NCBI GenBank assembly: GCA_020444165.1 | Contig: JAHLLK010000063.1 | Span: 1-36,127, forward strand | Origin: Deltaproteobacteria bacterium | Lineage (GTDB): Bacteria > Desulfobacterota > Desulfarculia > Desulfarculales > Desulfarculaceae | DNA length: 36,127 nucleotides | Direction: 5' to 3' | Shown: positions 4,182-28,585 of the stretch, piece by piece | How the letters are laid out: every line of letters begins with the position of its first letter | Numbering within the stretch: position 1 is the stretch's first letter | The notes under the pieces: generated by a model | The model's input: only the letters and a program-made list of their open reading frames with translations | What the model was told of the DNA's origin: nothing | The model's database searches: none | Program-made: the position numbers and the translations under genes

Positions 4182-4223
4182 GCCTTTGCCATTGGCCGCC
4201 GGACCAGCCGGCTCCCCCAGCGC

Positions 4224-4385
4224 ACGCCCGTCCGTCTTCTGGCTCCCGGGTCTTCCTCCGCTCCGCCTTCCCACCCCGCTGGGGCGGGGCAGTGGCCTCT
4301 GGAGCATTGTCTCCGGTCACAGCGGCGGGACCGCCACGGAATTTCACCGTGTTCCGAGGGCCGGCCGCAGCCGGCCAACGGGCGT
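4224..4385 (-). promoter_or_regulatory. Cobalamin riboswitch
   Basis: Read on the minus strand, the conserved cobalamin aptamer blocks appear in order. They are ACGGTGAAATTCCGTGGCGG, then GTCCCGCCGCTGTGACCGG, then GCCACTG, then GGTGGGAAGG, then GAGCCAGAAGACG. The P1 stem closes between ACGCCCGT (4385-4378) and ACGGGCGT (4231-4224). A promoter lies just upstream (4434-4406) and a terminator downstream (4181-4151), so cobalamin binding should switch off the dehydrogenase and TrpD-like genes. Assigned by eye from consensus blocks. Confidence 0.9.
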
Positions 4386-4405
4386 CGCTTGCAGGTTTTG
4401 TTACT

Positions 4406-8053: not shown

Positions 8054-8670
8054 AACGATCCTGAAAAAACGTCAGCGATCAAACTGAATCACTCGGGGCG
8101 GCACGGACGGCCCCGATTTGACTGTCACCGGTTTGGCCGCCGGTTTACCAAAGCGGAGGCTGTGTGAGGCGCCGCAAAGCTCAAAAAATAAAATTGGCGG
8201 GTTCGCATCCCACGCTGTTGTCCCGACTCCCCCGCGCGTTCTCCCCCTGCACCCTCTCTCTCCACCTCGCCAACACCTTCGCCCCCCTTCCGGGCCCGGC
8301 GGGCCTGGGCGGGGCGGGCGGCCCGGACCCTGCCGCCCGGCCGCAAGCCAGCCCCCAAAATGTTTTTGGCCATTTTTCTCCCGCCGCGGCCGGTTGGCTT
8401 CGGTGGGTTTTTTTTGGCGTCCGCACCAGGCCTGAGGCCCCGGTCCCCGTCCCCGGAAAGGGGCGGCGGGAGCCCTCCCGCGCCGGTAAGGCGGCCCTGG
8501 GCCGGGGCTGCTCCGGCGAACTCCCGGCGGTCCGGAGAAGTTGGAAACCTTTTTTGCCGCCCTGGCCCCCGGCCGATTGTTGACCGGGGTCCGGGCCAGG
8601 CGGTCGGCCATGATTTGCCAGGCGGCCCCAAGCCGTCAGGCTCATTTTCCAATCACTTAAGGAGGTCCTT

Positions 8671-9645
8671 ATGTTCCATTTCGACACGCCCCAGAAGGTT
8701 TGCCATATCGGCGGGGTCAAGTTTGGTGGCCAGCCCGGCCAGTACCCCATGGCCATGTGCAGCTCGATTTTCCAAAAGGGAGACCGCGTTTTCGAGGGCG
8801 CCAAGCGCAAGGAAGGCTTTAACGAGAAAAAGGCCGAAGAGCTCCTGAAGACCCAGGACCGCATGACCGCCGAGACCGGCGTGCCCGGCATGGCCGACAT
8901 CGTGGCCAACACCGGCGCCGAGTTCAAGACCTTCATCGACTTCGTCACCAGCGTGTCCGATATGCCCTTCTGCGTGGACGCCTGGGTCATGAAACCCAAG
9001 CTGGAAGGCGCCGCCTACTGCGCGGAAAAGGGCCTCCTGGACCGCATGTTCTACAATAGCCTCACCGTGTGGGAGCAGGACCTGGAAACCGAGATCCGCG
9101 AGATCTACCAGATGGGCGTCAAGCACGTGCTCCTGGTGGCCTTTGATCAAGATGACCAGAGTTCCCGCGGCCGCATCCCCGGCACCCAGAAGCTTCTGGA
9201 CGCCATCGAGAAGGTGGGCGCCAAGTTCGAGAGCATCTTCGTGGACACCAGCGTCATGGGCACCGCCGCCGTGTCCTTCTGCTCCGCGGCCAACAAGCTG
9301 GTCAAGGAGAAGTGGGGCTTCCCGACCTGCAGCGCCCCCTCCAACGGCATCTACATGTGGAAGGCCGCCAAGGAAAAGTGGGGTTTCAAGGCCTGGGCCG
9401 GCGCCGACGCCGCCCTGGAAGCCCTGGCCGCGGTCAACTACCACGACCTCTCCTTCAGCGGCCCCATGGCCGGCGCCGAGCGCCTGTTCCCCGCCGTGGG
9501 CATGGCCGAGGCCTACCTGGCCCTGTGGATCTATGACCAAACCGGCAAGCTGCCCGAGCTGGAGACCCACCCCCTGTACAAGCTGTTCCCCGACTTCGTG
9601 GAGCAGTTGAAGGGCCAGGGCGCCACGGTGCCGCACGCCGGCTGA
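8671..9645 (+). CDS. MtrH-family methyltransferase (corrinoid/tetrahydrofolate type)
   Basis: 324 residues of the MtrH family, TIM-barrel enzymes that move methyl groups between a corrinoid protein and a tetrahydropterin. In bacteria, relatives such as MtgA use tetrahydrofolate. The N terminus has the family's KFGGQPGQYPMAMCSSIF pattern; FVDTSVMGTAAVSFCSAANK and PTCSAPSNG are further conserved blocks. No membrane segment, unlike the methanogen Mtr complex, so soluble. ATG at 8671 has a strong AAGGAGG. First gene of the unit with the UroD-family methyltransferase and corrinoid protein. The likely job is to pass methyl from the corrinoid to tetrahydrofolate (inference). Confidence 0.88.
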   Translation: MFHFDTPQKVCHIGGVKFGGQPGQYPMAMCSSIFQKGDRVFEGAKRKEGFNEKKAEELLKTQDRMTAETGVPGMADIVANTGAEFKTFIDFVTSVSDMPFCVDAWVMKPKLEGAAYCAEKGLLDRMFYNSLTVWEQDLETEIREIYQMGVKHVLLVAFDQDDQSSRGRIPGTQKLLDAIEKVGAKFESIFVDTSVMGTAAVSFCSAANKLVKEKWGFPTCSAPSNGIYMWKAAKEKWGFKAWAGADAALEALAAVNYHDLSFSGPMAGAERLFPAVGMAEAYLALWIYDQTGKLPELETHPLYKLFPDFVEQLKGQGATVPHAG

Positions 9646-9706: not shown

Positions 9707-10747
9707 ATGACCCCCAAAGAGAGAGCCCTCAACACCATACTGGGTAAACCCATTGACCACATGGGCTTGTTCACCGGCATGGGCTGCGTGACCATGCCCG
9801 GCCTGAAGAAGCTGGGTTACAAGTTCGCCACCGTGCACACCGACGCCGAGCGTCTGGCCCGGGCCGCCTTCTCCACCTGCGAAATGTTCGGCATGGAGTC
9901 CTGCGTGGTGCCTTTTGACATGGCCATCGAGTCCGAGGCCATCGGCAACACCATCAGCCTCTACGAGGACAGCGAGGACATCCTCTACCCCACCATCCCG
10001 CACAAGATCTGGAAGACCATGGATGACCTGGCTATTCCCGACGACGTGCACGAGCGGGGCCGTTTCCCCATGCTGTTCGAATCGGTGAAGATCCTGAAGG
10101 GCCTCACCGGCGACCAGTTCGCGGCCGGCGGTTGGAGCCTGGGCCCGTTCACCCAAGCCGGCCAGATGCTGGAACTGGACCTGATCCTGAAGGGCGTGTT
10201 CCGCGAGAAGGCCAAGGTGGAGAAGGTCCTGGACGCCATCACCGACATGGCCATCGAGACCGGCCGCCGGTTGAAGGCTTCCGGCGTGGACTTCCTGACC
10301 CTCCGCGAGCCCGGCGTGGCCGCGGACCTGTTGTCCCCCCGCACCTTCAAGCAGCTGATCCAACCCCGCCTGACCAAGATCCTGGAAGGCTGGGGCGACA
10401 TTCCCAAGGTGCTCCACATCTGCGGCACCGCCACCCCGCTGGTGGAAATGATGATGGACTGCGGGGCCCACGCCCTGTCCTTCGACGTCAAGACCGACCT
10501 GGCCGTGGCCCGCGAGAAGATGGGCAAGATACCGATCCTGGGCAACTACGAGGTGTTCTACATTCCTTGCCAGAACCCGGTCGAGGATGCTGAGAAGGCC
10601 ATGCAGGCCTGCATCGACGCCGGCGTGGACGGCGTGTGGCCGGGTTGCGACCTGTGGCCGGACGTGAAGGAAGAGAACCTGCAGATGATGCGCAAGACGG
10701 TCACCGAGTACGGGGCCAAGGCCAGCCCTGCGGTGGGCCGCATTTAA
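9707..10747 (+). CDS. UroD-family (MtaA/MtbA-like) corrinoid methyltransferase
   Basis: 346 residues of the uroporphyrinogen-decarboxylase-fold methyltransferase family. It includes the zinc enzymes MtaA/MtbA and bacterial O-demethylase methyltransferases. The zinc-binding set is complete: His237 and Cys239 in LHICGTA, and Cys314 in WPGCDLWPDVKEEN. GGWSLGPFTQAG is a conserved barrel loop. AAGGAGC precedes ATG. The MtrH-like gene is upstream and the corrinoid protein gene 48 nt downstream, so it probably methylates or demethylates that corrinoid. The donor cannot be named. Compare the paralogue at 17850-18884, where Cys314 is replaced by selenocysteine. Confidence 0.87.
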   Translation: MTPKERALNTILGKPIDHMGLFTGMGCVTMPGLKKLGYKFATVHTDAERLARAAFSTCEMFGMESCVVPFDMAIESEAIGNTISLYEDSEDILYPTIPHKIWKTMDDLAIPDDVHERGRFPMLFESVKILKGLTGDQFAAGGWSLGPFTQAGQMLELDLILKGVFREKAKVEKVLDAITDMAIETGRRLKASGVDFLTLREPGVAADLLSPRTFKQLIQPRLTKILEGWGDIPKVLHICGTATPLVEMMMDCGAHALSFDVKTDLAVAREKMGKIPILGNYEVFYIPCQNPVEDAEKAMQACIDAGVDGVWPGCDLWPDVKEENLQMMRKTVTEYGAKASPAVGRI

Positions 10748-10795: not shown

Positions 10796-11467
10796 ATGGC
10801 GACTTGCGACGAGATGAAAAAAGAGCTGCATGAGGGCGTCGTCGAATACGACACCGATCGCGTGGTGGCCGCTGCCAACAAGGGCCTGGAGATCGGCTGT
10901 GACGCTCTCGACCTGATCATGAACGGCCTGGCCGCCGGCATGGAAGAAGTCGGCGAGCTGTACGACAACCAAGAGTACTTCGTGCCTGAGGTTCTGATGT
11001 GCGCCGACGCCCTGTACGGCGGCCTGGACATCCTGCGCCCGGCCGTGGTCGAGACCGACGGCGGCGTCAAGGGCCAGGTGGTCATCGGCTCCATCCAGGG
11101 CGACGTGCACGACATCGGCAAGAACCTGGTCAAGATGATGTTCGACGTGGGCGGCTTCACCGTGCACGATCTGGGCCGCGACGTTCCGCTGGAGAACTTC
11201 GTGCAGGAGCAGCTGCGGACCGACTCCGAGATCGTGGCCATGAGCGCCATGATGACCACCACCATGATGGGCATGAAGAAGGTCATCGAGATGATCAAGG
11301 AGAAGAACCCCAACGTGGCCATCATGCTGGGCGGCGCGCCGGTCACCAAGGACGTGGCGAACCTGTTCGGCGCCGACGGCTACGCCGAGAGCGCGGGCAA
11401 CGCGGTGCAGGAAGGCATCAAGATGATCGGCCGCCTGCGCGAGCTGCACGCCAAAAAGAACGCCTAG
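10796..11467 (+). CDS. Corrinoid protein of the methyltransferase system (MtbC/MtaC-like)
   Basis: 223 residues. The N-terminal helical cap domain (about 1-90) is followed by a B12-binding Rossmann domain (about 92-215). The cobalt-ligating motif is visible as GDVHDIGKN, with His105 as the expected lower axial ligand. It carries the methyl group between the UroD-family and MtrH-like methyltransferases. ATG at 10796 follows GGAG. It is the last gene before a strong terminator (11571-11607), so MtrH-like, UroD-like and corrinoid genes form one tight unit. Oxidised Co(II) would be rescued by the ASKHA protein at 13183-15234. Confidence 0.92.
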   Translation: MATCDEMKKELHEGVVEYDTDRVVAAANKGLEIGCDALDLIMNGLAAGMEEVGELYDNQEYFVPEVLMCADALYGGLDILRPAVVETDGGVKGQVVIGSIQGDVHDIGKNLVKMMFDVGGFTVHDLGRDVPLENFVQEQLRTDSEIVAMSAMMTTTMMGMKKVIEMIKEKNPNVAIMLGGAPVTKDVANLFGADGYAESAGNAVQEGIKMIGRLRELHAKKNA

Positions 11468-11668: not shown

Positions 11669-12100
11669 TTGCAGACTTCCGCCACCAACCCCGCGAGCCC
11701 TTCGGAGCGTGGCCGGCATTTTGGCCCCGGCTCCCCGGAGGCGGCCCCGGGCCCCGGCGGCGGCGCCCAAACCGGCGGCGCCGGCGCGGGCGGCGGCTCC
11801 CGCCTGATGTTGGTGGAGGTTCTTTCCGAAGGGCCCCATTGCATCCCTTGTGAATACGCCATCGCCACGGTGGAATACGTGGCGGAGTACTACCAGGGCC
11901 GTATTGAATTCCGGGTGGTGGAAACCAAGAAGAGGGCCGACGCCCAGCGCTACCTGGCCCTCAGCCGGGCGGCCGGCAAGCCCCTGCCGGTGCCCGGCAT
12001 CTTGATCGAGGGCCAGCTAGTCTTTGATTACAACCCTGGGCCGGAGGAACTCCGTTCCGTGCTGGACCGAGCCTTGGCCGATTGGGAGGGGAAGCAGTGA
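11669..12100 (+). CDS. Thioredoxin-like protein (CIPC)
   Basis: 143 residues if TTG at 11669 is the start; the first 45 are a Gly/Pro/Ala-rich linker. ATG at 11807 would give a 97-residue protein containing the whole thioredoxin fold but has no ribosome site. The active site is HCIPCEYA, the cis-Pro region LPVPGILIEGQLVF. It shares this layout with the genes at 18921, 19413 and 21784 (CxxC or UxxC, then P, then I-E/D-G-x-LVF). Its end overlaps the reductase-like gene by 4 nt (GTGA), so the two probably work as a pair. Confidence 0.75.
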   Translation: MQTSATNPASPSERGRHFGPGSPEAAPGPGGGAQTGGAGAGGGSRLMLVEVLSEGPHCIPCEYAIATVEYVAEYYQGRIEFRVVETKKRADAQRYLALSRAAGKPLPVPGILIEGQLVFDYNPGPEELRSVLDRALADWEGKQ

Positions 12101-13038
12101 GCGAGCAAATTTTCGACGTTGCCGTATTGGGTTCCGGCCCCGCCGGCCTCACCGCGGCCATCTATGCCCATCGCGCCGGCCTTTCCACCCTGGTGGTCGG
12201 CGGCGACCATCCCGGCGGCAAGGTCATGATGCACCCCCACATCGAGAACTACCCTCCCTTCCCCGAGGGGGTCACCGGGGCCGAGCTGATGATCCGCTGG
12301 GTCAAGCAGGTGGCTGACGAAGTGGGCGAGGGTCCCCGGCCGGAGATGGTGACCAAGGTGGACCTGGCCGGTGCGGTGAAGACCATCGAGGCCGAGGGCG
12401 GCACCTACCAGGCCCGCACGGTCATCGTGGCCACCGGGGCCTCGGGAAGAAAACTGGGGGTCAAGGGCGAGGAAGAGCTGGCTGGCCGGGGGGTTTTCTC
12501 CTGCGCCATGTGCGACGCACCCCTCCTGCGCACCCTGAAGCGGCAGCGGGCCGTGGTGGTGGGCGGCGGCGACACGGCGGTGCACACAGGCCAGGGGCTG
12601 TTGCCCCATGCCGAGGCGGTCACCCTCATCACCCGGGGCCCGGCCCTGCGGGCCCAGCCGGTGTTGGTGGACCGCTTCCTGGCCGACCCCAAGGCCGGCT
12701 GCCGTTTCCAAAGGCAGGTGGTGGCCATCCACGGCGGCTCGTGGGTGGCGGGCGTGAGCCTCAAGGACCCGGCCACCGGCGCCATCGAAGAGATGGAGAT
12801 CGACGCGGTATTCGTGGGCATCGGCCAGGTACCCAGCACGGGATTTTTGCAGGGCGCCCTGGCCACCGACGAGGAAGGCTTCCTGGTGGTGGACGGCGAT
12901 CTGGCCTGCAGCCTGCCCGGCGTGTTCGCGGCCGGCGACGTGCGGGTCAGCCCGCTCCGGCAGATCATCACCGCCGCCTCGGACGGTGCTTTGGCGGCCA
13001 AGAGCGCGACGGACTACCTGGCCGCCGCGGAAATTTGA
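12097..13038 (+). CDS. Thioredoxin-reductase-like flavoprotein
   Basis: 313 residues, the usual TrxB size. FAD motif GSGPAGLTAA (12-21); redox-active CAMC (Cys136, Cys139; typical TrxB is CATC); second nucleotide site VVVGGGDTAVHTG; C-terminal GVFAAGDVR. The NADPH 2'-phosphate signature HRRxxxR is altered to TRGPALRA, and the GGGDS.EEA helix is altered too. NADPH may therefore not be the donor (inference). GTG at 12097 is chosen over the in-frame TTG at 12082 because GGGAGGGG then lies at ribosome-site distance. It overlaps the CIPC thioredoxin-like gene, its likely substrate. Confidence 0.87.
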   Translation: MSEQIFDVAVLGSGPAGLTAAIYAHRAGLSTLVVGGDHPGGKVMMHPHIENYPPFPEGVTGAELMIRWVKQVADEVGEGPRPEMVTKVDLAGAVKTIEAEGGTYQARTVIVATGASGRKLGVKGEEELAGRGVFSCAMCDAPLLRTLKRQRAVVVGGGDTAVHTGQGLLPHAEAVTLITRGPALRAQPVLVDRFLADPKAGCRFQRQVVAIHGGSWVAGVSLKDPATGAIEEMEIDAVFVGIGQVPSTGFLQGALATDEEGFLVVDGDLACSLPGVFAAGDVRVSPLRQIITAASDGALAAKSATDYLAAAEI

Positions 13039-13182: not shown

Positions 13183-15234
13183 ATGGACAAAAAAGAACAC
13201 ACTGTAATCTTTCAGCCTTCCGGCCGCCGGGGCCCGGTTCCCGCCGGCATCACCCTGATCGAGGCCTCCCGCCGCCTGGGCGTGGACATCGAGGCCCTCT
13301 GCGGTGAGAAGAAGGTCTGCGGTAAGTGCAAGGTCCGCATCGAAGAGGGCATGTTCGAAAAGTACGGCATCGAGTCCGGGCAAAAGCATTCTTCCCCCTG
13401 GCAGGTGGAAGAGGAGAAGTTCGTCTCCGCCGAGGAGAAGGCCAAGGGCATGCGGCTGGGCTGCGTGGCCAAGGTCGAGGGTGACTTGTTGGTGTTCGTG
13501 CCGGAGGAGTCCCGCGCCGGCAAGCAGGTGGTGAGCAAGGCCGCCCGCGACATCCACATCGACTGGGACCCCGCCGTGAAACTGTACTACGTGGAAGTCG
13601 AGCCGCCGACCTTCGAGGAGCCCACCGGCGATTTCGAGCGCGTATTGAACGAGCTGGACCGCCAGTACGGCATCAAGCCAGATTCCATCCGGGTGGACTA
13701 CTTCGCCCTGCGGACCCTGCCCCGCGTCATCCGCAACGAGGACAGCAAGTGGAAGGTCACCGTGGCCTTGTGGATGGACCGGGAGATCGTGCGCTTCTAC
13801 CCCGGTAAGGTCGCGGACTGCTACGGCATCGCTATCGACATGGGCACCACCACCTGCGCGGCCTACTTCTGCAACCTCGTCACCATGAAGGTTATCGACA
13901 CGGCTTCCATGATGAACCCGCAGTGCAAGTACGGCGAGGACGTCATGGCCCGCATCACCTACCATATGATGAACGAAGACGGCCTGGAGCGCATGAGCGC
14001 GGATATCATCGAGGGCCTGAACACGCTCATCAAACGCTGCGTGGACGGCACCCATCCCCCCAAGAAGAAGGACAAAGCCACCGGCGAGATGGTGGAAGCG
14101 CCCGAGGAAGGCGTGGAGTACCTGCGCCTGAGTCTGGAAGACGTGCTGGACATGACGCTCGTGGGCAACACCGCCATGCACCACATCTGCCTGGCCCTGG
14201 ATCCCGAGTTCGTGGGTCTAGCCCCCTTCCCGCCGGTCATCCACCGCAGCCTGGACATCAAGGCGCGTGACCTGGGCATCACCCTCAACAAGGGCTGCTA
14301 CGTGCACGTGCTGCCCAACGAGGCCGGCTTCGTGGGCGCGGATAACGTGGGCGTGTTGGTCTCCGAAGAGCCCTACAAGAGCGAAGAGCTGCAGCTCATC
14401 ATCGACATCGGCACCAACGGTGAGCTGGTTCTGGGCAACAAGCACAAGCTCATCAGCTCCTCCTGCGCCACCGGCCCGGCCCTGGAAGGCGCTCAGCTCT
14501 CCTGGGGCATGCGCGCCGCCCCGGGCGCCATCGAGCGCATCAAGATCGATCCCGAGACCCACGAGGTGGATTACAAGGTCATCGGCCGCGACGCCTGGCG
14601 GGCCTTCTCCAAGCCCGAGGAAATGCAGTGCAAGGGCATCTGCGGTTCGGGTATCCTGGACGTGTTGGCCGAGCTTTACCGGGCCGGCGTCATCGTGAAG
14701 AGCGGCCGCTTCAACCCCACCCAGAAATCCAATCGCTTCCGTAAGGTGGGCCGCACCTCCGAATTCGTCATCGCTTGGGCCAACGAGACTCCCAAGGAGA
14801 TCAACAAGGACGTGGTCATCACCCAGAAGGACGTGCGGCAGATCCAGCTGGGCAAGGGCGCTCTGTACACCGGCTGCAAGCTGATGATGCGCCGCATGGG
14901 TATGGAAAAGGTGGACACGGTCAAGATCGCCGGCGCCTTCGGCACCCACGTGGACCGCGAAAAGGCCCTGATCATGGGTCTGTTCCCGGACTGCGAGATC
15001 GAAAAGATCAAGAGCGTGGGCAACGCGGCGGGCGACGGCGCCCGGGCCGCCCTCTTGAATCGCAAGAAGCGGGAAGAGGCCAACTGGTGCGCCCGCAACG
15101 TGGAATACATCGAACTCACCGTGGAAGAGGACTTCCAGGACGAGTTCTCGGCCTCCATGCAGATTCCTCATATGCGCGACGAGTTCCCCCACCTGCGCGG
15201 CTTGGTGGCGGACGACATCCTGGATCAGGAATAG
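13183..15234 (+). CDS. ASKHA-domain corrinoid activation protein with [2Fe-2S] domain
   Basis: 683 residues of the RACE (reductive activator of corrinoid enzymes) type. The N-terminal ferredoxin-like domain has Cys40, Cys46 and Cys49 (CGEKKVCGKC) and Cys94 (MRLGCVAKV). The ASKHA ATPase domain starts with IAIDMGTTTCAAYF, with a second phosphate motif LIIDIGTNGELVLG and SSCATGPALEGA. KIAGAFGTHVD and SVGNAAGDGA are typical of the C-terminal part. Such proteins use ATP and low-potential electrons to reduce inactive Co(II) to Co(I). ATG at 13183 has AGGAGG. The gene stands 144 nt after the reductase-like gene, so it may have its own promoter. Confidence 0.92.
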   Translation: MDKKEHTVIFQPSGRRGPVPAGITLIEASRRLGVDIEALCGEKKVCGKCKVRIEEGMFEKYGIESGQKHSSPWQVEEEKFVSAEEKAKGMRLGCVAKVEGDLLVFVPEESRAGKQVVSKAARDIHIDWDPAVKLYYVEVEPPTFEEPTGDFERVLNELDRQYGIKPDSIRVDYFALRTLPRVIRNEDSKWKVTVALWMDREIVRFYPGKVADCYGIAIDMGTTTCAAYFCNLVTMKVIDTASMMNPQCKYGEDVMARITYHMMNEDGLERMSADIIEGLNTLIKRCVDGTHPPKKKDKATGEMVEAPEEGVEYLRLSLEDVLDMTLVGNTAMHHICLALDPEFVGLAPFPPVIHRSLDIKARDLGITLNKGCYVHVLPNEAGFVGADNVGVLVSEEPYKSEELQLIIDIGTNGELVLGNKHKLISSSCATGPALEGAQLSWGMRAAPGAIERIKIDPETHEVDYKVIGRDAWRAFSKPEEMQCKGICGSGILDVLAELYRAGVIVKSGRFNPTQKSNRFRKVGRTSEFVIAWANETPKEINKDVVITQKDVRQIQLGKGALYTGCKLMMRRMGMEKVDTVKIAGAFGTHVDREKALIMGLFPDCEIEKIKSVGNAAGDGARAALLNRKKREEANWCARNVEYIELTVEEDFQDEFSASMQIPHMRDEFPHLRGLVADDILDQE

Positions 15235-15250
15235 TGGTAAATTAGACCTT

Positions 15251-15274
15251 GGCGGGGGGCCTCGGCCCCCCGCC
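15251..15274. other. Perfect 10-bp GC hairpin between the activator and small Cys protein genes
   Basis: GGCGGGGGGC (15251-15260), CTCG loop, GCCCCCCGCC (15265-15274). No T-run directly follows, so it may stabilise mRNA or attenuate rather than end transcription. Confidence 0.6.
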
Positions 15275-15299
15275 ATTCACCCTTTTGGGGACGGCGAGT

Positions 15300-15623
15300 G
15301 TGACCAAGGTCAAAGTTTTTCCCGGCCCTTGCGGCTTTGAAGCAGAGATCACGGCGGAAAAGGACGGCAAGCACCAAGTGCGCATGACCGTTGAATCCAA
15401 ATGCCCGGCGGTGAAGGCCCTGGGCGAGAAACTGCCGTTGTTGACCATGCGGGACATCGTGGGCAAGGGGGGCTTCGGGGCGGTACGGCCCTTCGAGGTC
15501 GCCACCGGCACTCTGTTCCACGCCACCTGCCCCGTACTATGCGGATATTTGAAGGCCGCCGAGGCGGAAATGGGCCTGGCGGTGCATCGCGATGTGGTTT
15601 TGGAGATAAAGAAGGAGAGTTGA
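15300..15623 (+). CDS. Small conserved Cys protein of methyltransferase clusters (DUF6951-like)
   Basis: 107 residues from GTG at 15300, preceded by GGGGACGG. Cysteines occur in PGPCGF, ESKCPAV and HATCPVLCG, suggesting metal or cofactor binding. It resembles a small uncharacterised family (I believe DUF6951) seen next to corrinoid methyltransferases; this assignment is from memory. It ends 2 nt before the CobW-like gene, so the two are co-translated. An earlier in-frame start would lie inside the hairpin at 15251-15274 and is rejected. Confidence 0.65.
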   Translation: MTKVKVFPGPCGFEAEITAEKDGKHQVRMTVESKCPAVKALGEKLPLLTMRDIVGKGGFGAVRPFEVATGTLFHATCPVLCGYLKAAEAEMGLAVHRDVVLEIKKES

Positions 15624-15625
15624 GC

Positions 15626-16603
15626 ATGTCTCGCCCGATTCCGGTCCACCTCATATGTGGTTTTTTGGGCTCGGGCAAAACCACCTTGCTGCGCCGAATT
15701 CTGGCCGAGCAGCCCCCCGCGGAAAAATTGGTGGTGCTGGTCAACGAATTCGGTGAGCTGGGCATAGACGGTTCGCTCTTGGAAGGCTTCGATTCCGAGG
15801 TGCTGGAACTCTCCAGCGGGTGCATCTGCTGCACCCTCAAAGCTGATTTCATTTCTACTCTCAACAAGATGCTCGCCGATTTCCATCCCGACCGGGTGGT
15901 GGTGGAAGCCACCGGCATCGCCGAGACCGGCGATCTGGTCCAGGCGGTGGAGATGCTGCAGGCCCGGGCGGACGTGGAGCTGGCCAGCGTGGTCACGGTG
16001 GTGGACGCGGAGAACTTCAAGTACCGCGACATGCTGGGGCCGTTGTTCTACCGCCAAATGGAGACGGCCGACCTGATTTTGCTCAACAAAATAGACCTGG
16101 TGGAGCACGGGGAGGTGGAGGAGCTCTCGGAGGCCCTCCACGAGATCAATCCCGGGGCCCGCATCATGCCTGTGGTTTATGGGGCGGTGGATCGGGCCAT
16201 CATCCTGAATCCCCAACCCGGCCAGCCCCGGGAGCGCAGCCAGGTGACGATGCCGGTGTTGGACATGATGTCCCTGCTGACCCAAGCTCCGGGCCATGAA
16301 GGGCACGAGCATGAACACGACACCACCAGGGATTTCATGTCTTTTTCCTTTGAAACCGACCGCTTGGCCCAAAAGGAATGTTTGGAGGGCTTTTTGGCCG
16401 GCCTTCCTTGGGGGGTGTTTCGGGTCAAGGGGTTCGTGCGCTTTGCCGAGGGAACCGAGGTTTTGAACCACACGTACCGTCGCTCCGAGTTCGCGCCCAG
16501 CCGGGAGCCCTCGGGGACCAGGCTGGCTTTCGTGGCTTGGAAGATGGATCAACAGGAGATTTTGGCTCAATTGGCCGGCTGTTTTTACCATAAGGAAGCA
16601 TGA
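15626..16603 (+). CDS. CobW/G3E-family GTPase
   Basis: 325 residues. Walker A GFLGSGKTT (12-20), metal motif CxCC in SSGCICCTLKADF, switch region VVVEATGIAETG, NKIDLVEHG for guanine specificity, and a C-terminal CobW domain (WGVFRVKGFVRF). A His-rich stretch, HEGHEHEHD, near residue 215 is a probable metal-holding loop. G3E GTPases deliver metals or help cofactor loading. Here the neighbours suggest cobalt/corrinoid or zinc supply to the methyltransferases (inference). AAGGAG precedes ATG; the stop overlaps the next start (ATGA). Confidence 0.9.
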   Translation: MSRPIPVHLICGFLGSGKTTLLRRILAEQPPAEKLVVLVNEFGELGIDGSLLEGFDSEVLELSSGCICCTLKADFISTLNKMLADFHPDRVVVEATGIAETGDLVQAVEMLQARADVELASVVTVVDAENFKYRDMLGPLFYRQMETADLILLNKIDLVEHGEVEELSEALHEINPGARIMPVVYGAVDRAIILNPQPGQPRERSQVTMPVLDMMSLLTQAPGHEGHEHEHDTTRDFMSFSFETDRLAQKECLEGFLAGLPWGVFRVKGFVRFAEGTEVLNHTYRRSEFAPSREPSGTRLAFVAWKMDQQEILAQLAGCFYHKEA

Positions 16604-17220
16604 CCATGGCTCATTTGCGTATCGCGGAAATTACCACCGAACGGGTTGAATCCCCCCGGGCCGTTCTGGCCGCCGACGAAATGGCGGAAATCACGGAAAT
16701 GGTCCGTCAGATGGGCTTTGACGATGTTTGTTTGCTGGAGACTTCCAGCATCGTCACCGCTCACTGGGTAGGTTTGAAATGCCGTTATGGTTGCGCCAAT
16801 TACAACACCAGTTGGTGCTGCCCGCCGGCCACACCCAGTCTGGAGAAAACCCGGGAGCTTCTCTCGGAATACGACCTGGCCCTATTATTGATCGGCAGCA
16901 AGAAAAACGAGCATTTCTATCGGCGAAACCGAGCCAAAAGGCGCATCCAGATGAAGGAGTGGAAGGCCACGGTGGCCATGGAACGCAAATTGTTCCTTAA
17001 GGGTTACTACAAAGCCTTCGGCCTGCCGGGCGAGGCCTGCGCCCTCTGCGAGAAATGCGCCTACCCTGACAATTGTCTTTTCCCCAATGAAAAGCGGCCT
17101 TCCATTGAGTCCTGCTCCATTGACATTTTTAAGACAATTGAGCGGATGGGCAAACGTATTCAGCTGGCCCAGAAGGCCAGCGACACCTATCAGACTTATA
17201 GTTTGATCCTATTGAAATAA
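16600..17220 (+). CDS. DUF2284 putative metal-binding protein
   Basis: 206 residues, Cys-rich. Blocks GLKCRYGCANYNTSWCCPPA, then CALCEKCAYPDNCLFP, then SIESCSIDIF match the DUF2284 family, predicted to bind metal or an Fe-S cluster and common beside corrinoid methyltransferases. No signal peptide. The start overlaps the CobW stop by 4 nt; a second ATG two codons later is possible. Exact function unknown. Confidence 0.8.
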   Translation: MTMAHLRIAEITTERVESPRAVLAADEMAEITEMVRQMGFDDVCLLETSSIVTAHWVGLKCRYGCANYNTSWCCPPATPSLEKTRELLSEYDLALLLIGSKKNEHFYRRNRAKRRIQMKEWKATVAMERKLFLKGYYKAFGLPGEACALCEKCAYPDNCLFPNEKRPSIESCSIDIFKTIERMGKRIQLAQKASDTYQTYSLILLK

Positions 17221-17849: not shown

Positions 17850-18884
17850 ATGGCTAAGCAGAAATTGATTGATGCTTACCGTGGAAAGAGGACAGAGGAC
17901 GCCCCCTGGGTGCCCTATGCCGGCGTGCACTGCGCGTTTATGATCAACGAGCCGGCTGACAAGATGCTGCAGGATCCCGCCCTGTTGGCCAAGGGCGTAA
18001 CCTACACCGCCGAGCGCTATCACGCCGACGGTATTCCGCTGGTCTTCGACCTTTCCGTCGAGGCCAACAGCGTAGGTTGCGATCTGAAATGGTGGCCGGA
18101 CAACGTCCCCAGCGTCAAGTCCCACCCCTGCTCCGAGAAGTCCCCCAAAGAGCTGGGCATGAAGATCCCCACCGCGGACGAAGGCCGTTGGCCCGTGCTG
18201 TTCGAGGCGGCCAAGCTGGCCAAGCCGAAGCTGGACGAGTTGGACTGCTGCCTGATGGGTCTGTACTGCGGTCCCCTCACCCTGGCCTCCCACTTGGCCG
18301 GCGTGCGGATCTTCACCGACGTGTACAAGAAGAAGGAATTTGCCCATGAGGTTCTGAGCTACGCGGGCAAGGTCGGCGCGGCCGCGGCCAAGTTCTATGC
18401 GGACATGGGCTGCGACATCATCGCCATCGTGGACCCGGTGGCCAGCCAGATCAAGTCCGAGACCTTCAAGGAGTTCGTGACCCCCAACTGCCAGGAAGCC
18501 ATCCAGGTGATCCACGACGCCGGCAAGACCTCGTCGTTCTTCATCTGCGGCGACTGCACCAAGGTCATGACCGACGTTTGCGAGCTGGGCACCCATGGTT
18601 TCGCCATCGACGAGCAGCTCAACATGAACTTCGTGCGCGACATCGCCATCAAGCACGGCCGGGGCTTCGGCGGCAACTTGAAGCTCACCCTGGCTCTCAG
18701 CCTGGGCCTGTTGTCTCCCCGGGAGGACGCCATTGTCAGTTTGGCGGCCGGCGGACAACAAGGCTACACATTCGCACCTGGTTGAGACATGCCCTACGAT
18801 GTTCCGGTGGAACATATGGATCAGGCGTACGAGGCCAAGGCTTGGTACAACGACTACTACGCCAAGTACCCCACTAAGTGGTAG
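17850..18884 (+). CDS. Selenocysteine-containing UroD-family corrinoid methyltransferase
   Basis: Reads as 344 residues when UGA at 18783-18785 is decoded as selenocysteine (Sec312). Without recoding it would stop at 311. The frame continues past UGA as DMPYDVPVEHMDQAYEAKAW to a TAG at 18882. That tail is what UroD-family methyltransferases carry at this place, and the total matches the 346-residue paralogue at 9707. Sec312 aligns with the zinc-ligand Cys314 (PGC-D versus PG-U-D). The middle motif is FICGDC, so the His of HxC is Phe231 here while Cys233 is kept. A SECIS-like hairpin follows. GAAAGGAG precedes ATG. Expected to act on a corrinoid protein; donor unknown. Confidence 0.88.
18783..18815 (+). 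promoter_or_regulatory. Recoded UGA and bacterial SECIS hairpin (methyltransferase)
   Basis: UGA (18783-18785), then 13 nt, then ATGTTCC (18799-18805), loop GGT, GGAACAT (18809-18815): a perfect 7-bp stem. The apical GGU begins 20 nt after UGA. The well-known fdhF SECIS has GGU 18 nt after UGA. Position and loop G/U fit SelB recognition. Confidence 0.85.
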
Positions 18885-18905
18885 AAATTCTCTGGGAGAG
18901 AATTT
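18885..18905 (+). other. Perfect AT-rich hairpin after the Sec methyltransferase stop
   Basis: AAATTCTC (18885-18892), TGGGA loop, GAGAATTT (18898-18905), directly between the TAG stop and the ribosome site of the next gene. It may be an mRNA-stability or translation-control hairpin. Confidence 0.5.
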
Positions 18906-18920
18906 AAGGGAGGACAGTTC

Positions 18921-19325
18921 ATGGCTGGTGAAACCATGACCATCGAGGTCCTTACACTGGACAGCGTCCAGTGCGCGGCGTGCGGTTACATGATGGAATC
19001 CATCGCCGCCATGCCCAAAGAGATCCAGGACATCATCGAGTACAAAGAGTGGTCCATCAAAAACAAAGATGGCATCGGCAAATTCCTGGAGCGCAAGGGC
19101 CGGGTGCTGCCCACCATTTGTATTGAAGGCGATCTGGTTTTCGAGAGCATCATTCCCCAATATGAGGAACTGATCGACGAGATGGCCAAACGCGCTCCCT
19201 CGCAGGAGATGGCCACCAAGATCAAGGGCCTGCGTGACAAGGGGTTCGAGTTCGACAAGATCCAGGAGAACCTGGCCAGGGCCGGCGCCGGCGCCGCCAC
19301 CCGGGTCGACTCCAAGATCAAGTAG
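18921..19325 (+). CDS. Thioredoxin-like protein (CAAC)
   Basis: 134 residues. The active site is SVQCAACGYMMES near the N terminus, cis-Pro region RVLPTICIEGDLVFES, then a C-terminal helical extension (about 90-134) not needed for the fold. It is the closest local relative of the selenoprotein at 21784 (FNQ-U-LACVYMAES), and sits where a redox partner of the Sec methyltransferase would be expected. GGGAGGA precedes ATG. Cytosolic: no signal peptide. Confidence 0.8.
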   Translation: MAGETMTIEVLTLDSVQCAACGYMMESIAAMPKEIQDIIEYKEWSIKNKDGIGKFLERKGRVLPTICIEGDLVFESIIPQYEELIDEMAKRAPSQEMATKIKGLRDKGFEFDKIQENLARAGAGAATRVDSKIK

Positions 19326-19412: not shown

Positions 19413-19784
19413 TTGGACAAACTGCTTTTGGAAATCACCTACAAAGCCAGCTACTGCCTGCTTTGTGTGTACATGGAAGAGGCGGTGTACGATGTGTTGC
19501 CGGAGTATGCCGAGCACATTGACTACCGCCGCATCGACTTCCTGCGGGGCGAAGGGCGCCAGCGGTTCCTGGACCTCTCGGTCTCCCTTTTCGGGTACGA
19601 CGGAGTGTACAAGCACCGGCGCATCGCCCCCATTCCTTCCCTCTGGTTGGACGGGGAGATGGTCTTCGACGGCATCCCCCCCCGCCACGAACTATTGGAG
19701 GCGTTGGAGGAAGCGTTGGCGCAAAAAAAGGCGGGCCAGAAAGCTGGGCATAGGGTCGACCAGGGGGCTGATCTCGTGGCTTGA
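19413..19784 (+). CDS. Thioredoxin-like protein (CLLC)
   Basis: 123 residues from a TTG start at 19413 with GAGG 6 nt upstream. Active site SYCLLCVYMEEAV; cis-Pro region IAPIPSLWLDGEMVFDG; C-terminal basic tail. Member of the same subfamily as 11669, 18921 and 21784. Separated from the previous gene by 87 nt of GC-rich DNA. A terminator-like hairpin follows. Exact partner unknown. Confidence 0.72.
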   Translation: MDKLLLEITYKASYCLLCVYMEEAVYDVLPEYAEHIDYRRIDFLRGEGRQRFLDLSVSLFGYDGVYKHRRIAPIPSLWLDGEMVFDGIPPRHELLEALEEALAQKKAGQKAGHRVDQGADLVA

Positions 19785-20046: not shown

Positions 20047-20252
20047 GAGGCCATTGCATGGTGAAACACATAAAACGTGTTGATATTATGTCAAAAATGG
20101 CTATGAAACATGATTACGGCAGGCAATGGCCGATGCGGGCCAAGGATGGCCCGCCAAATTGCAAGCTTCAAAAAGCTTGCAATTTGTGAGGGTTGGCAAA
20201 ATCGCGTTTTTGCCAACCCGACATTGCACGGGGCAGGACGCCCCGTGCAATG
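20047..20252 (-). repeat. Type II multi-hairpin repeat, copy R1
   Basis: In element (minus) order. Module A: ATTGCACGGGG/CCCCGTGCAAT (20223-20251). Module B: GGTTGGCAAAA-type stem with a CGCGA loop. Module C: 14-bp perfect stem CAAATTGCAAGCTT/AAGCTTGCAATTTG (near 20157-20188). Module D: GCGGGCCA/TGGCCCGC with a 4-nt loop and no S insert. Module F: long AT-rich loop closed by GGCCATTGC/GCAATGGCC, with GAGGCC at 20047. Confidence 0.85.
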
Positions 20253-20379: not shown

Positions 20380-20623
20380 GAGGCCATTGCACGGTATTTT
20401 CCAGCAAACAATAGCTATAACAGCCGATTATCTCGGTTTTTGGTAGTTTTTCTGTGGCAATGATCTCATGCAGGCCAGGGATGGCCCGCCGAATAACAAA
20501 CCTAAAAGGTTTGTTATTCTTGAGGCTTGGCTAAACCCGGGCCCCCGACAAGCTCTGCTTGCTGGGGTGGAGTCACGCTTTTGCCAAGCCGCTCGTTGCC
20601 CAAAGCATGGAGCCTTGTGCAAC
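20380..20623 (-). repeat. Type II multi-hairpin repeat, copy R2
   Basis: Same module order as R1. Module C is a 13-bp perfect stem of different sequence (GAATAACAAACCT/AGGTTTGTTATTC, about 20493-20521). Module D has a 4-nt loop. Module B (GGCTTGGC/GCCAAGCC) carries the S hairpin inside its loop, whereas other copies have S in module D. The F terminus GAGGCCATTGCACGG lies at 20380. Confidence 0.82.
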
Positions 20624-21783: not shown

Positions 21784-22074
21784 GTGGCCGACAAAGTGGT
21801 CATCGACGTGCTGCTGACCGATTTCAACCAGTGACTGGCCTGCGTCTATATGGCGGAATCGGTAAGGGCCTTACCGACAGAACTGGCTGAGAAGATGGAA
21901 GTTCGGGAGTGGGACCTGCGCACCCGGGAGGGGATCGCCCGCTTCCGGGAGTTGAAGGCCAAGATGCTGCCGTCCATCGCCATGGACGGAGCCCTGGTCT
22001 ATGAGTCCCTCATCCCGGGCCAGGAAGAGCTTATCGCCGAGATCGAACGGCGCTATCAGGAAAAACTTAACTGA
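21784..22074 (+). CDS. Thioredoxin-like selenoprotein (UxxC)
   Basis: 96 residues when UGA at 21832-21834 is decoded as selenocysteine. The frame runs VADKVVIDVLLTDFNQ-U-LACVYMAESV, giving Sec17-x-x-Cys20 exactly where the paralogue at 18921 has CAAC. After it, KMLPSIAMDGALVYES has the cis-Pro strand. GTG at 21784 follows GGAGGGA, and the previous gene's TAA immediately precedes it, so translation is expected to start upstream of UGA. A start at ATG 21850 would delete the active site and the first strand. A SECIS-like hairpin lies 25 nt after UGA. Likely a selenol-based reductase or carrier for the methyl-transfer proteins (inference). Confidence 0.88.
21832..21877 (+). promoter_or_regulatory. 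Recoded UGA and bacterial SECIS hairpin (thioredoxin-like)
   Basis: UGA at 21832-21834. TCGGTAA (21859-21865) pairs with TTACCGA (21871-21877) over loop GGGCC. The loop begins 31 nt after UGA with G at its first positions, within the range accepted for bacterial SECIS elements. Confidence 0.75.
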
Positions 22075-22260: not shown

Positions 22261-22421
22261 CTAGCAGGCTGTTGAAAAACAGCCTGCTAGGCGCGCCAGG
22301 GATGGCGCGCCAAATTGCGCGGCTTTGAAAAAGCAAGCAATTTGGAAAACTTGACAAAACCACGCTTTTGTCAAGTTTGGTTGAAAAAGGCCATGGAGGG
22401 ACTTTTTCAACATCCTGCTAG
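22261..22421 (-). mobile_element. Type I repeat with terminal inverted repeats (MITE-like)
   Basis: 161 bp bounded by CTAGCAGGCTGTTGAAAAA (22261) and TTTTTCAACATCCTGCTAG (ending 22421), an 18/19 terminal inverted repeat. Inside, in minus orientation, are module B (AACTTGACAAAA stem, GCGTGG loop), module C (CAAATTGC family) and module D (GGCGCGCC arms, no S). It has no coding capacity. CTAG at both ends could be target duplication or element sequence. The ends resemble those of IS families ending in GTTGAAAAA (from memory). Confidence 0.75.
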
Positions 22422-23939: not shown

Positions 23940-24962
23940 ATGGGCGCTAAAACCCACGTGTATCTGATCACCGGTTTTTTGGGAGCGGGCAAAACCACCT
24001 TCCTGAACCGCATCATCAAATCCTTCCCGCCGGACAAGAAGCTGATGATCCTCATGAACGAGTTCGGCGAGGTGGGGGTGGACGGCACCCTGGTGGAGGG
24101 CGAGGACCTGACCATGATGGAGATCAGCAAGGGCTCCATCTTCTGCGTCTGCGTGAAAACCGACTTCATCAAGGGCCTGAACGAGATCGCCGCCACGGTG
24201 CAGCCCGACATCCTCTTGATCGAATCCACCGGCGTGGCCAACCCCACGGACCTGAAACGCGACCTGAAGCTGCCCTTCTTCAAGGACCGCTTCGATCTGG
24301 ACGAGCAATTCTGCATCGTGGATGCGCACAACTTCGCCGAGGAGTACGAGATCTTCGCCAGTGTGGAAAAGCAGATCGCTTCCTCCACCATGTTCATCAT
24401 CAACAAGGTGGACCAGGCCACGCCCGAGGAAATCGCCGCGGTGAAGGAACTGGTGGCGGAGAACCACCCCAATCCCCGCTTCTACGAGACATCCTACGGC
24501 GAGGTGCCCCTGAACGAGCTGTTCCCGGCCGTGTTCGCCACCGCCGCCGACGACGGCCCCCTGCCGGAGTACCTGAGCCCCGAGGAGCTGGAGACGGCCA
24601 TCGAGGACCTTCTGGACGACCCCAACCGGGAAATCACCCCGCCGGACCGGCTGCTCTCGGCCGTGTACCAGTGGAGCGGGGAGAGCCTGCCCCATTTCCA
24701 GGAGTTCCTGGAGCGGCTGCCCCGGGGGGTCATCCGGGCCAAGGGCTTTTTCGCGGCCGACGGCGCCACCCACCTCTACAGCCAGGTGATGGCCACCAAG
24801 GAGGTCAAACCGGCCACCCTGCCCGCGGGCCGGCAGGCGTTGTTGAACATGCTGGTGGTGATCGCACCGCCCGAGGTGATGAACCAGTTGGAGGAGGCCG
24901 TGGCCGATTTCCCCTACGCCACCCAGCACTCGGTGTTGGACCCCATGGCGGGGCAGGAGTAG
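23940..24962 (+). CDS. CobW/G3E-family GTPase with altered Cys motif
   Basis: 340 residues. Walker A GFLGAGKTT (12-20); LLIESTGVANP; NKVD guanine motif; C-terminal CobW domain (RGVIRAKGFF). The usual metal motif GCICC is replaced by GSIFCVCVKTDF, leaving C-x-C. No His-rich loop, unlike the paralogue at 15626. It probably serves a different metal or cofactor than the first CobW (inference). Confidence 0.88.
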   Translation: MGAKTHVYLITGFLGAGKTTFLNRIIKSFPPDKKLMILMNEFGEVGVDGTLVEGEDLTMMEISKGSIFCVCVKTDFIKGLNEIAATVQPDILLIESTGVANPTDLKRDLKLPFFKDRFDLDEQFCIVDAHNFAEEYEIFASVEKQIASSTMFIINKVDQATPEEIAAVKELVAENHPNPRFYETSYGEVPLNELFPAVFATAADDGPLPEYLSPEELETAIEDLLDDPNREITPPDRLLSAVYQWSGESLPHFQEFLERLPRGVIRAKGFFAADGATHLYSQVMATKEVKPATLPAGRQALLNMLVVIAPPEVMNQLEEAVADFPYATQHSVLDPMAGQE

Positions 24963-26886: not shown

Positions 26887-28065
26887 ATGAACGCCACCCC
26901 CCAGTCTTTCGATGATTTGCTCAAACCTGCGCCCGCGGCTCCTGCGCCGGACCAGGCCGCGGCCCCCTGCTGCGGCCCGGCCGGCCACCCGGTGCAGCCG
27001 GTCGCCGGCCTGCCCAGCGCCACCCAGCCCTTTGTGGCGGGTGTGCAGGAGACGCCGCTGGGCCCGGTCCCCCGGGTGACCAGCCGGCTCACCTGGGCCG
27101 ACCGCTGGGGAGCCATCAAGGCCCGCTGGGGCGTGGGGCGCATGGATTACCGGGTGCAGCCCGGCGTGTACGCCCTCCATGAGCCCCGGCCCGACTCGCC
27201 GGTCCTGGTCACCGCCAACTACAAGCTCACCTTTGACAAACTGCGCAAGGAGCTCAGGGGCATCCGGGCCTGGCTCTTCTGCCTGGACACCGACGGGGTC
27301 AACGTCTGGTGCGCGGCCGGCAAGGGCAACCTGGGCACCGACAACCTCACCGCCTCGGTGGAGGGCGCGGAACTGGCCAAATTGGTCAGCCACCGGGAGC
27401 TGTTGTTGCCCCAGTTGGCCGCCCCGGGCATCTCGGCCCACCAGGTGCGGCGGGCCTGCGGGTTTGCGGCTTCCTTCGGCCCCATCCGGGCCCGGGACAT
27501 CCCCGCCTTCCTGGCCAACGGCCGGGAGGCCCTGCCGGAGATGCGCCGGGTCAGCTTCACCACGCTCGAGCGAGTGGTGCTGATTCCGGTGGAGCTGGTC
27601 ACCGCCTTGAAGCATGTACTTTATATCGCTCCGCTGCTGGCCCTCCTGGGCATGGGGCTGGGCTGGTGGCGGGGCCTGGGCCTCGTGCCCGCCTTGGCCG
27701 CGGACGGCCTCTACGCCGGCCTGGGAGCGGTTTGGGGGCTCTTGGGCGGCGCGGTGCTGAGTCCGCTCCTTTTGCCCTGGCTGCCGGGCCGGGCCTTCGC
27801 CCTGAAGGGCCTGTGGCCGGGCCTGGTTTTGGCCCTGGCCTGGTGGGCCCTGGCCCCGGCCGGGCTGCCCCTGTGGGAGCGGAGCGCCTGGCTCCTGGTG
27901 ACCCCGGGGTTCAGCTCCTTTTTGGCCATGAACTTCACCGGCGCCTCCACCTACACCTCGCTTTCCGGGGTGAAGAAGGAGATGCGCTGGGCCGTGCCGC
28001 TCCAGATCCTCATCGGGCTGGCGGGCCTGGTCTTGTGGTTGGCCGGGGGGCTGGGTTATCTGTAG
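26887..28065 (+). CDS. hgcA: HgcA, corrinoid protein for mercury methylation
   Basis: 392 residues. The diagnostic cap-helix motif NVWCAAGKG is present with Cys142 as the expected cobalt ligand. The C-terminal 150 residues hold about five membrane spans and the MNFTGASTYTSLSGVKKEM block typical of HgcA. The N terminus is long (about 80 residues before the core), Pro/Ala-rich, with a vicinal Cys pair APCCGPAGH. AGGAG precedes ATG. HgcA carries methyl on a corrinoid and passes it to Hg(II); hgcB follows 52 nt later. Inner membrane, soluble corrinoid domain facing the cytosol. Confidence 0.96.
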   Translation: MNATPQSFDDLLKPAPAAPAPDQAAAPCCGPAGHPVQPVAGLPSATQPFVAGVQETPLGPVPRVTSRLTWADRWGAIKARWGVGRMDYRVQPGVYALHEPRPDSPVLVTANYKLTFDKLRKELRGIRAWLFCLDTDGVNVWCAAGKGNLGTDNLTASVEGAELAKLVSHRELLLPQLAAPGISAHQVRRACGFAASFGPIRARDIPAFLANGREALPEMRRVSFTTLERVVLIPVELVTALKHVLYIAPLLALLGMGLGWWRGLGLVPALAADGLYAGLGAVWGLLGGAVLSPLLLPWLPGRAFALKGLWPGLVLALAWWALAPAGLPLWERSAWLLVTPGFSSFLAMNFTGASTYTSLSGVKKEMRWAVPLQILIGLAGLVLWLAGGLGYL

Positions 28066-28117: not shown

Positions 28118-28585
28118 ATGGGACGATTGGTTTATCTGAAGAACGTGGTCACCCTGGAGCTGAGCCCGGAGCGTTGCGTGGGCTGCGGCCTTTGCCTGGC
28201 CGTGTGCCCCCAGGGAGTCCTGGCCCTGGTGGACAAGAAGATCACCGCCACGGACCGCGACGCCTGCATGGAGTGCGGGGCCTGCATGGAAAACTGCCCC
28301 AGCGGAGCCATCAGCGTGGAAGCGGGGGTGGGCTGCGCCAACGCGGTGATCAACGCGGCCCTGGGCCGGCAGAGCTCGTCGTGCTGCTGCTCGGTGGAGA
28401 CCCGTCCTAAGCCCACGGCGGTCACCGGTGAACCAGCCCCGGCCGCGGCCTGCTCCTGCGGCAGCACCCCGGCCCTGGGCCCCTTGGAGGCGGCTCCGGC
28501 GGCCGCGTCCGGGTCGTGCTCTGGCGGCGCCGCCCCGGAGCGGAATGACTCCCCGGCCCCTTCCTCCTCCGGCTGCTGCGGCTGA
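28118..28585 (+). CDS. hgcB: HgcB, 2[4Fe-4S] ferredoxin of mercury methylation, with long Cys-rich tail
   Basis: 155 residues. Two ferredoxin motifs, CVGCGLCLAVCP and CMECGACMENCP, the latter holding the HgcB-typical CMECGAC. Known HgcB proteins are about 95-105 residues ending in a Cys pair. Here the tail is about 55 residues longer and contains CCC, CSC, SCSGG and a terminal GCCG, separated by Ala/Pro/Ser linkers. HgcB reduces HgcA and is thought to hand over Hg through its C-terminal Cys. AAGGAG precedes ATG. Confidence 0.94.
   Translation: MGRLVYLKNVVTLELSPERCVGCGLCLAVCPQGVLALVDKKITATDRDACMECGACMENCPSGAISVEAGVGCANAVINAALGRQSSSCCCSVETRPKPTAVTGEPAPAAACSCGSTPALGPLEAAPAAASGSCSGGAAPERNDSPAPSSSGCCG

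Follow-up and report, generated by a model that had tools for sequence, protein, structure and literature searches.

We analysed a 36,127-nucleotide stretch of DNA (called the window hereafter) from a Deltaproteobacteria bacterium (contig JAHLLK010000063.1) and found that one of its genes, which we named Sec-UroD, most probably codes for a selenoprotein of the UroD superfamily. Related genes occur in sulfate-reducing groups of bacteria and in some Bacillota. The UGA codon at 18783 is very likely decoded as selenocysteine (Sec), as judged from comparison of related genes. As to function, we lean towards a 344-residue UroD-fold Sec protein that would perform selenolate-ligated, thiol-dependent methyl transfer to or from a corrinoid protein; a dedicated thioredoxin-like protein would be its likely partner. 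At the sequence level, this proposal is founded on a fixed TGA codon followed by a conserved tail, a selected hairpin, Cys homologues, the Sec machinery of relatives, a Phe-x-Cys...Sec pattern, a thioredoxin-like domain and corrinoid- and CobW-related neighbours. The elements on which the recoding prediction is based are the following.

17850-18884, + strand: Sec-UroD, UroD-superfamily protein, probable methyltransferase, 344 residues with a predicted Sec at position 312
18783-18785, + strand: predicted Sec codon (codon 312), TGA in 66 and TGC in one of the 67 distinct genes that cover it
18799-18815, + strand: SECIS-type (selenocysteine insertion sequence) hairpin, 7-bp stem AUGUUCC/GGAACAU, GGU loop, the loop being 20 nt past the UGA

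A conserved in-frame TGA codon in a UroD-superfamily gene

The frame starts with ATG at 17850, contains a single in-frame stop, TGA at 18783-18785, and ends with TAG at 18882-18884, as an earlier sequence-only reading of the window had described; it codes for 344 residues if the TGA is decoded. The product scores 156 bits against Pfam URO-D (PF01208; gathering cut-off 23.9), and both this score and its predicted fold place it in the superfamily. The tail past codon 312, DMPYDVPVEHMDQAYEAKAWYNDYYAKYPTKW, comprises 32 residues. The sequence-only reading had held that standard annotation would remove 33 residues, a number reached only by counting the Sec; the clipping itself is real. Thus, a protein search with Sec-UroD yielded 1073 homologues, and among the best 120 of them 116 are exactly 311 residues long, three are full length with a Cys at position 312 and one has a Trp there.

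A scan of a genome collection, for which five of six search patterns precede codon 312 and the query had a Cys at that position, identified 46 loci; going by their titles, most belong to Deltaproteobacteria or Desulfobacterota groups and a handful to Bacillota. One of them, L042, stops short of codon 312. In each of the other 45, this codon is TGA and the only in-frame stop, and the tail after it follows the pattern D-[MLI]-P-[YF]-D. Named strains with the gene include Desulfospira joergensenii DSM 10085 (L014) and Desulfotomaculum copahuensis LMa1 (L032). Full-length matches of at least 64% identity were present in 31 of the 291 genomes of the class of G014, with one TGA in 30 and none in the last (G282), and the 113 genomes of the class of G032 contributed 10 full-length matches, each with one TGA. 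These sets overlap. We pooled the genes at an identity of at least 60% and made them unique. The resulting 68 distinct genes, including that of the window, comprise 66 with TGA, one with TGC (L075) and L042, and none has a further in-frame stop.

An in-frame UGA within a conserved frame, a hallmark of bacterial selenoprotein genes, is hence found in 66 of the 67 distinct genes covered, which rules out a sequencing error or a pseudogene. The second hallmark, homologues with Cys at the same position, is provided by L075, P0007, P0008, P0014 and eight distant fused homologues described below; the earlier reading had proposed an alignment to look for such forms. On a 71-row tree, four changes are needed to account for the four rows with Cys, three of them forced by well-supported branches, although bootstrap values are unsettled and the details rough. 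Codon 312 hence appears to have switched more than once.

The prevalence of annotated 311-residue proteins could also mean that the TGA is a genuine stop and that the short protein is functional. However, the tail is under purifying selection, aligns with the fold of MtaA and occurs in the Cys forms, making this highly improbable. We give next to no credence to the idea that the organism translates TGA throughout into Trp or another standard amino acid. The database protein P0063 does have a Trp at position 312, and that its source reads TGA as Trp is a guess; the TGA form, on the other hand, is spread over many record titles. Global reassignment was rejected, as TGA terminates 10 of the 20 window genes checked, including the second predicted selenoprotein gene.

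A hairpin under selection downstream of codon 312

The geometry of the window hairpin fits the bSECIS model as quoted in the excerpts of PMC13188914 used here. Its five inner pairs form in 64 of the 66 TGA genes, compared with a mean of 8% and a maximum of 32% in synonymous redraws; for the outermost pair the count is 51 of 66. Two-sided changes from T-A to C-G affect two stem pairs, one of them in two genes and the other in a single gene. In the gene of G040 (L040, L086), the stem is retained in a shifted position despite an altered protein tail. The hairpin has been lost, stem included, from the TGC gene L075.

Codon usage gives the same picture. The third bases of Val318 (GTT in 64/64) and Pro319 (CCG in 65/67) are the top two among 81 conserved fourfold codons (mean, 0.50), and pS (the proportion of synonymous differences) drops to 0.17 over codons 317-322 versus 0.74 in the body. 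These comparisons indicate that the hairpin is under selection. A 48-nt region around it folds at -7.5 kcal/mol or lower in 45 of 46 sequences, L013 reaching -7.3.

Selenocysteine machinery in the host genomes

Most host genomes of the 46 loci, all of them from relatives of the window organism, appear equipped for Sec insertion. SelB is above cut-off in 42 of them and tRNA-Sec in 40, with best tRNA-Sec scores ranging from 61.5 to 80.7 bits (gathering score, 47); only G025 has neither. Similarly, selB is present in 29 of the 31 genomes with a full-length Sec-UroD.

Several observations speak against the recoding prediction or weaken its support. SelB occurs in 252 of the 291 genomes of the class anyway; given this background, its co-occurrence with Sec-UroD is a consistency check only, and we set it aside as a proof of recoding. 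Among 14 control genomes, selB passes in two and tRNA-Sec in five, and the tRNA-Sec model is therefore the less specific of the two. Constraint is weaker on the tail than on the body (corrected ratio, 0.22 versus 0.06). The minimal 17-nt hairpin of the window folds at -6.1 kcal/mol, -13.3 being reached only over the 48-nt region, and synonymous shuffling of that region, a weaker test, gave a mean z of only -1.5. Nevertheless, Sec insertion at codon 312, as first put forward in the sequence-only reading, is strongly supported, because of the fixed TGA, the conserved tail, the SECIS-type hairpin, the Cys homologues and the Sec machinery that nearly every examined host genome encodes.

The predicted active site

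The window encodes a second UroD-type protein, with which the sequence-only reading had correctly compared Sec-UroD: this paralogue has PGCD in place of PG-TGA-D, and its length is 346 versus 344 residues.

9707-10747, + strand: UroD2, MtaA-like paralogue, 346 residues, with His-x-Cys and PGC motifs; 185.4 bits against TIGR01463, below the cut-off of 235.4

We then compared Sec-UroD with MtaA, the methylcobalamin:coenzyme M methyltransferase of Methanosarcina mazei (PDB 4ay7/4ay8), by structural alignment (23% identity). Sec312 is aligned with the Cys of the APGC motif of MtaA, Cys233 with the Cys of H-I-C-G, and Phe231 with the His of the latter. Sec312 and Cys233 would be located in the predicted active-site pocket of the UroD-fold protein. 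The His and Cys of H-I-C-G and the Cys of APGC are what we take to be the zinc ligands of MtaA. A His-Cys-Cys zinc sphere is given for UroD-type S-methyltransferases such as MtaA and Mlp in excerpts of PMC10418091. Sec-UroD does not have this sphere: Phe231 and Cys233 are both conserved in 68 of 68 genes, and with Phe in place of the His of H-x-C the ligand set is incomplete. The proposal that Sec replaces the last zinc Cys therefore stands as far as its alignment with the last Cys of MtaA goes, whereas the zinc role is unsecured.

In an alignment of 55 UroD rows, His148 is present in all 13 rows with Phe231 (12 distinct genes, one G298 gene occurring twice). This makes His148 a candidate, which we offer as a hypothesis, for a relocated replacement ligand.

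The loss of the His ligand and the location of Sec at the zinc-thiol position of MtaA would also suit a metal-free mechanism, with Sec312 itself as methyl acceptor or donor between the corrinoid and a thiol through a Se-methylselenocysteine intermediate. We regard this as unlikely. Cys forms persist (four rows, four changes in the tree), and Sec at position 312 is thus not obligatory.

Likely thioredoxin-like partners and a second predicted selenoprotein

Thioredoxin-like proteins are encoded on both sides of Sec-UroD, as is a flavoprotein related to thioredoxin reductase. Neither the second TGA gene nor the partnership with thioredoxin-like proteins was part of the earlier reading.

18921-19325, + strand: thioredoxin-like protein with a CAAC motif, directly 3' of Sec-UroD
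19413-19784, + strand: thioredoxin-like protein with a CLLC motif
21784-22074, + strand: second predicted selenoprotein, thioredoxin-like, with a UxxC motif (TGA at 21832-21834)
21859-21877, + strand: SECIS-type hairpin of the UxxC gene, 8-bp stem, GGC loop, the loop being 32 nt past the UGA
11807-12100, + strand: thioredoxin-like protein with a CIPC motif
12082-13038, + strand: pyridine-nucleotide-disulphide oxidoreductase, thioredoxin-reductase-like (TrxB-like)

Wherever the locus extends far enough to tell (45 of 45), a thioredoxin-like homologue starts at most 420 bp downstream of the Sec gene, and 43 of these homologues have the CAAC motif. The eight distant homologues listed (34-37% identity, from five genomes) are all single proteins consisting of a UroD part, with FFVCG and PGC motifs, and a C-terminal CAAC domain. 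Seven of them come from genomes of the class of G014 and one from a genome of the class of G032.

The UxxC gene is paralogous to the CAAC gene. Among distinct sequences with the ACVYM motif, the window's included, 22 of 22 have the TGA, and the hairpin in this set mostly reads CGGUAA-N-GGNN-UUACCG, a result given without a null test. The closest named family of the CAAC, CLLC and UxxC proteins is the HUIPC motif thioredoxin-like (seleno)protein family (NF047660; cut-off, 105 bits). The three proteins score 33.5, 56.8 and 46.4 bits, respectively, and fall outside that family; accordingly, we did not assign the UxxC protein to it.

The proximity or fusion of thioredoxin-like proteins, the UxxC predicted selenoprotein and TrxB-like flavoprotein of the cluster and the Phe231 of all 68 genes are also what one would expect of a metal-free redox pair. 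Sec312 and Cys233 would then form a selenenylsulfide, with the CAAC and UxxC proteins and the flavoprotein as its reductants, and Sec-UroD would be a Sec-dependent reductase or a redox-switched methyltransferase. This is the main rival of the methyl transfer proposal, and we consider it possible, though doubtful in view of the MtaA-like fold and the corrinoid-related neighbours, which point to methyl transfer, and of the CobW-family GTPases described in the next section.

Other features of this region were also observed. An inverted repeat was spotted by eye at window positions 18885-18905, which lie between the Sec and CAAC genes. A 40-nt repeat is present in three copies, at 20133-20172, 20468-20507 and 22289-22328, the last two being 80% and 73% identical to the first. 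L028, L032 and L044 code for a further thioredoxin-like paralogue, with TGA in a Q-TGA-ASG-[TP]-YM motif, adjoining the UxxC gene. In L012, the gene at 8580-8819 (+) has TGA in an EH-TGA-IPC motif, like the named HUIPC family.

Gene neighbourhood and proposed mechanism

The cluster also includes the following genes.

8671-9645, + strand: MtrH-type methyltransferase
10796-11467, + strand: corrinoid (B12-binding) protein
13183-15234, + strand: RACo-type corrinoid reductive activator
15249-15623, + strand: DUF6951 protein
15626-16603, + strand: CobW-family GTPase 1
16600-17220, + strand: DUF2284 predicted metal-binding protein, found in 22 of 46 loci
23940-24962, + strand: CobW-family GTPase 2

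Neighbours were counted over the 46 loci, many of which are on short contigs, reaching at most 10 kb on each side. CobW-family GTPase 2 is near the Sec gene in 39 loci, and the corrinoid protein and RACo are in 28 each. When only loci with more than 6.5 kb of upstream sequence are considered (26), 21 have the corrinoid protein, 17 RACo, 17 UroD2 and 15 MtrH. A CobW-family GTPase also directly follows the fused form in L093, with none seen in L092. The recurrence of such GTPases argues against a metal-free redox pair.

The substrate methyltransferases differ between loci. The distance from the Sec gene to an MtmB-like gene upstream of it is approximately 1.5 kb in L124, L038 and L046, 5.6 kb in L035 and 10 kb in L036. 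The MtmB-like protein of L124 scores 290 bits against PF05369; in this locus, from the genome of an Olavius-associated symbiont (G005), a second copy of the Sec gene is next to the MtmB-like gene. The fused form in L092 is adjoined by an MTTB-family protein, a BCCT transporter and a corrinoid protein. This variation suggests, without proving it, that Sec-UroD may be a component serving several methyl donors instead of one substrate.

In the methyl transfer proposal that we favour, SelB would direct the recoding of UGA, and Sec-UroD would move methyl groups to or from the corrinoid protein. Its rebuilt metal site, with Cys233, Sec312 and perhaps His148 as ligands, may be loaded by the CobW GTPase, and a thiol activated there by Sec312 would exchange methyl groups with the corrinoid. 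This thiol might come from the CAAC and UxxC proteins, whose role might otherwise be to maintain the Cys/Sec pair in its reduced form. More tentatively, the cluster might represent an anaerobic corrinoid pathway with new selenium-dependent methyl-transfer chemistry. A Cys-Sec site with the relocated His148 would replace His-Cys-Cys zinc, dedicated thioredoxin-like proteins would exchange methyl groups with the enzyme through their dithiol or selenothiol, and the cluster would include at least two selenoproteins and varied substrate methyltransferases (UroD2/MtrH, MtmB-like or MttB-like).

Some of our data run counter to these proposals. Sec-UroD scores 122.8 bits against the MtaA/CmuA family TIGR01463, below the curated cut-off of 235.4, and does not belong to it. 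Metal binding is unproven, given the loss of the His ligand, and His148 is also present in five of the 42 rows with His231, which thus have both His residues. Downstream of the Sec gene, CAAC is replaced by CLAC in L046, and the match in L035 lacks the motif region. Finally, MtrH and UroD2 are each found in only 18 of 46 loci.

Relationship to known systems

Sec-UroD differs from MtaA by its Phe in place of the His ligand, its predicted Sec in place of the last Cys, its thioredoxin-like partner and its score below the MtaA cut-offs. It resembles the Mlp proteins of type 1 mlp clusters, which are UroD-superfamily methyltransferases of anaerobes whose genes neighbour those of corrinoid proteins and reductive activators (Kountz and Balskus, excerpts of PMC10418091). 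According to the same excerpts, most Mlp host species also encode Sec synthesis, and Mlps have a His-Cys-Cys zinc sphere except for several Mlp1 proteins; neither Sec nor a thioredoxin fusion is reported for Mlps there. Type 1 mlp clusters combine Mlp2 and Mlp3 with a corrinoid protein and Ram/RACE, and the components identified in the window are UroD2, the corrinoid protein and RACo only. The mec cassette for dichloromethane likewise has several URO-D superfamily proteins, a corrinoid protein and a putative MTII, but the excerpts of PMC9768040 that describe it report no selenoprotein. The mlp, mec and methyl-selenide (SdmABC; excerpts of PMC11097638) systems were weighed as the home of the cluster, and it was not shown to belong to any of them.

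The statement of the sequence-only reading that it knew of no characterised Sec-containing member of the family agrees with the literature searched. We met no UroD-superfamily selenoprotein in it, although other selenoproteome surveys may mention one. There is no such entry among the 119 families of Table 1 in the portion of PMC13188914 (2026) used. The main text of the deep-Sep paper (PMC12013277) mentions none of uroporphyrinogen, corrinoid, methyltransferase and MtaA, and PMC8318568 mentions neither uroporphyrinogen nor MtaA. A family of the UroD superfamily, 116 of whose best 120 homologues are annotated as stopping at residue 311, appears to consist of selenoproteins in which the tail lost to annotation completes the fold and contributes a likely active-site residue. 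The cluster gains a second predicted selenoprotein, and residue 312, Cys233, His148 and the CAAC partner represent concrete predictions.

Selenium has been predicted in a corrinoid-linked protein before: Table 1 in excerpts of PMC13188914 lists HgcA and HgcB as containing Sec in some organisms. HgcA is the corrinoid protein itself, unlike Sec-UroD, a UroD-superfamily protein. If our prediction is true, corrinoid pathways would have selenium in a UroD-type step as well, that table already listing HgcA as a corrinoid protein with Sec. The window contains an hgcA/hgcB pair approximately 8 kb from the Sec gene.

26887-28065, + strand: hgcA, mercury methylation; NF040863, 419 bits (cut-off, 275)
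28118-28585, + strand: hgcB, mercury methylation; NF040864, 117.5 bits (cut-off, 99)

The hgcA gene of the window has no in-frame TGA. A link between hgcAB and the Sec gene is unsupported, with HgcA in none of the 46 loci over the at most 10 kb covered on each side. Elsewhere in the window, a cobalamin riboswitch is predicted at 4212-4398 on the - strand (86 bits).
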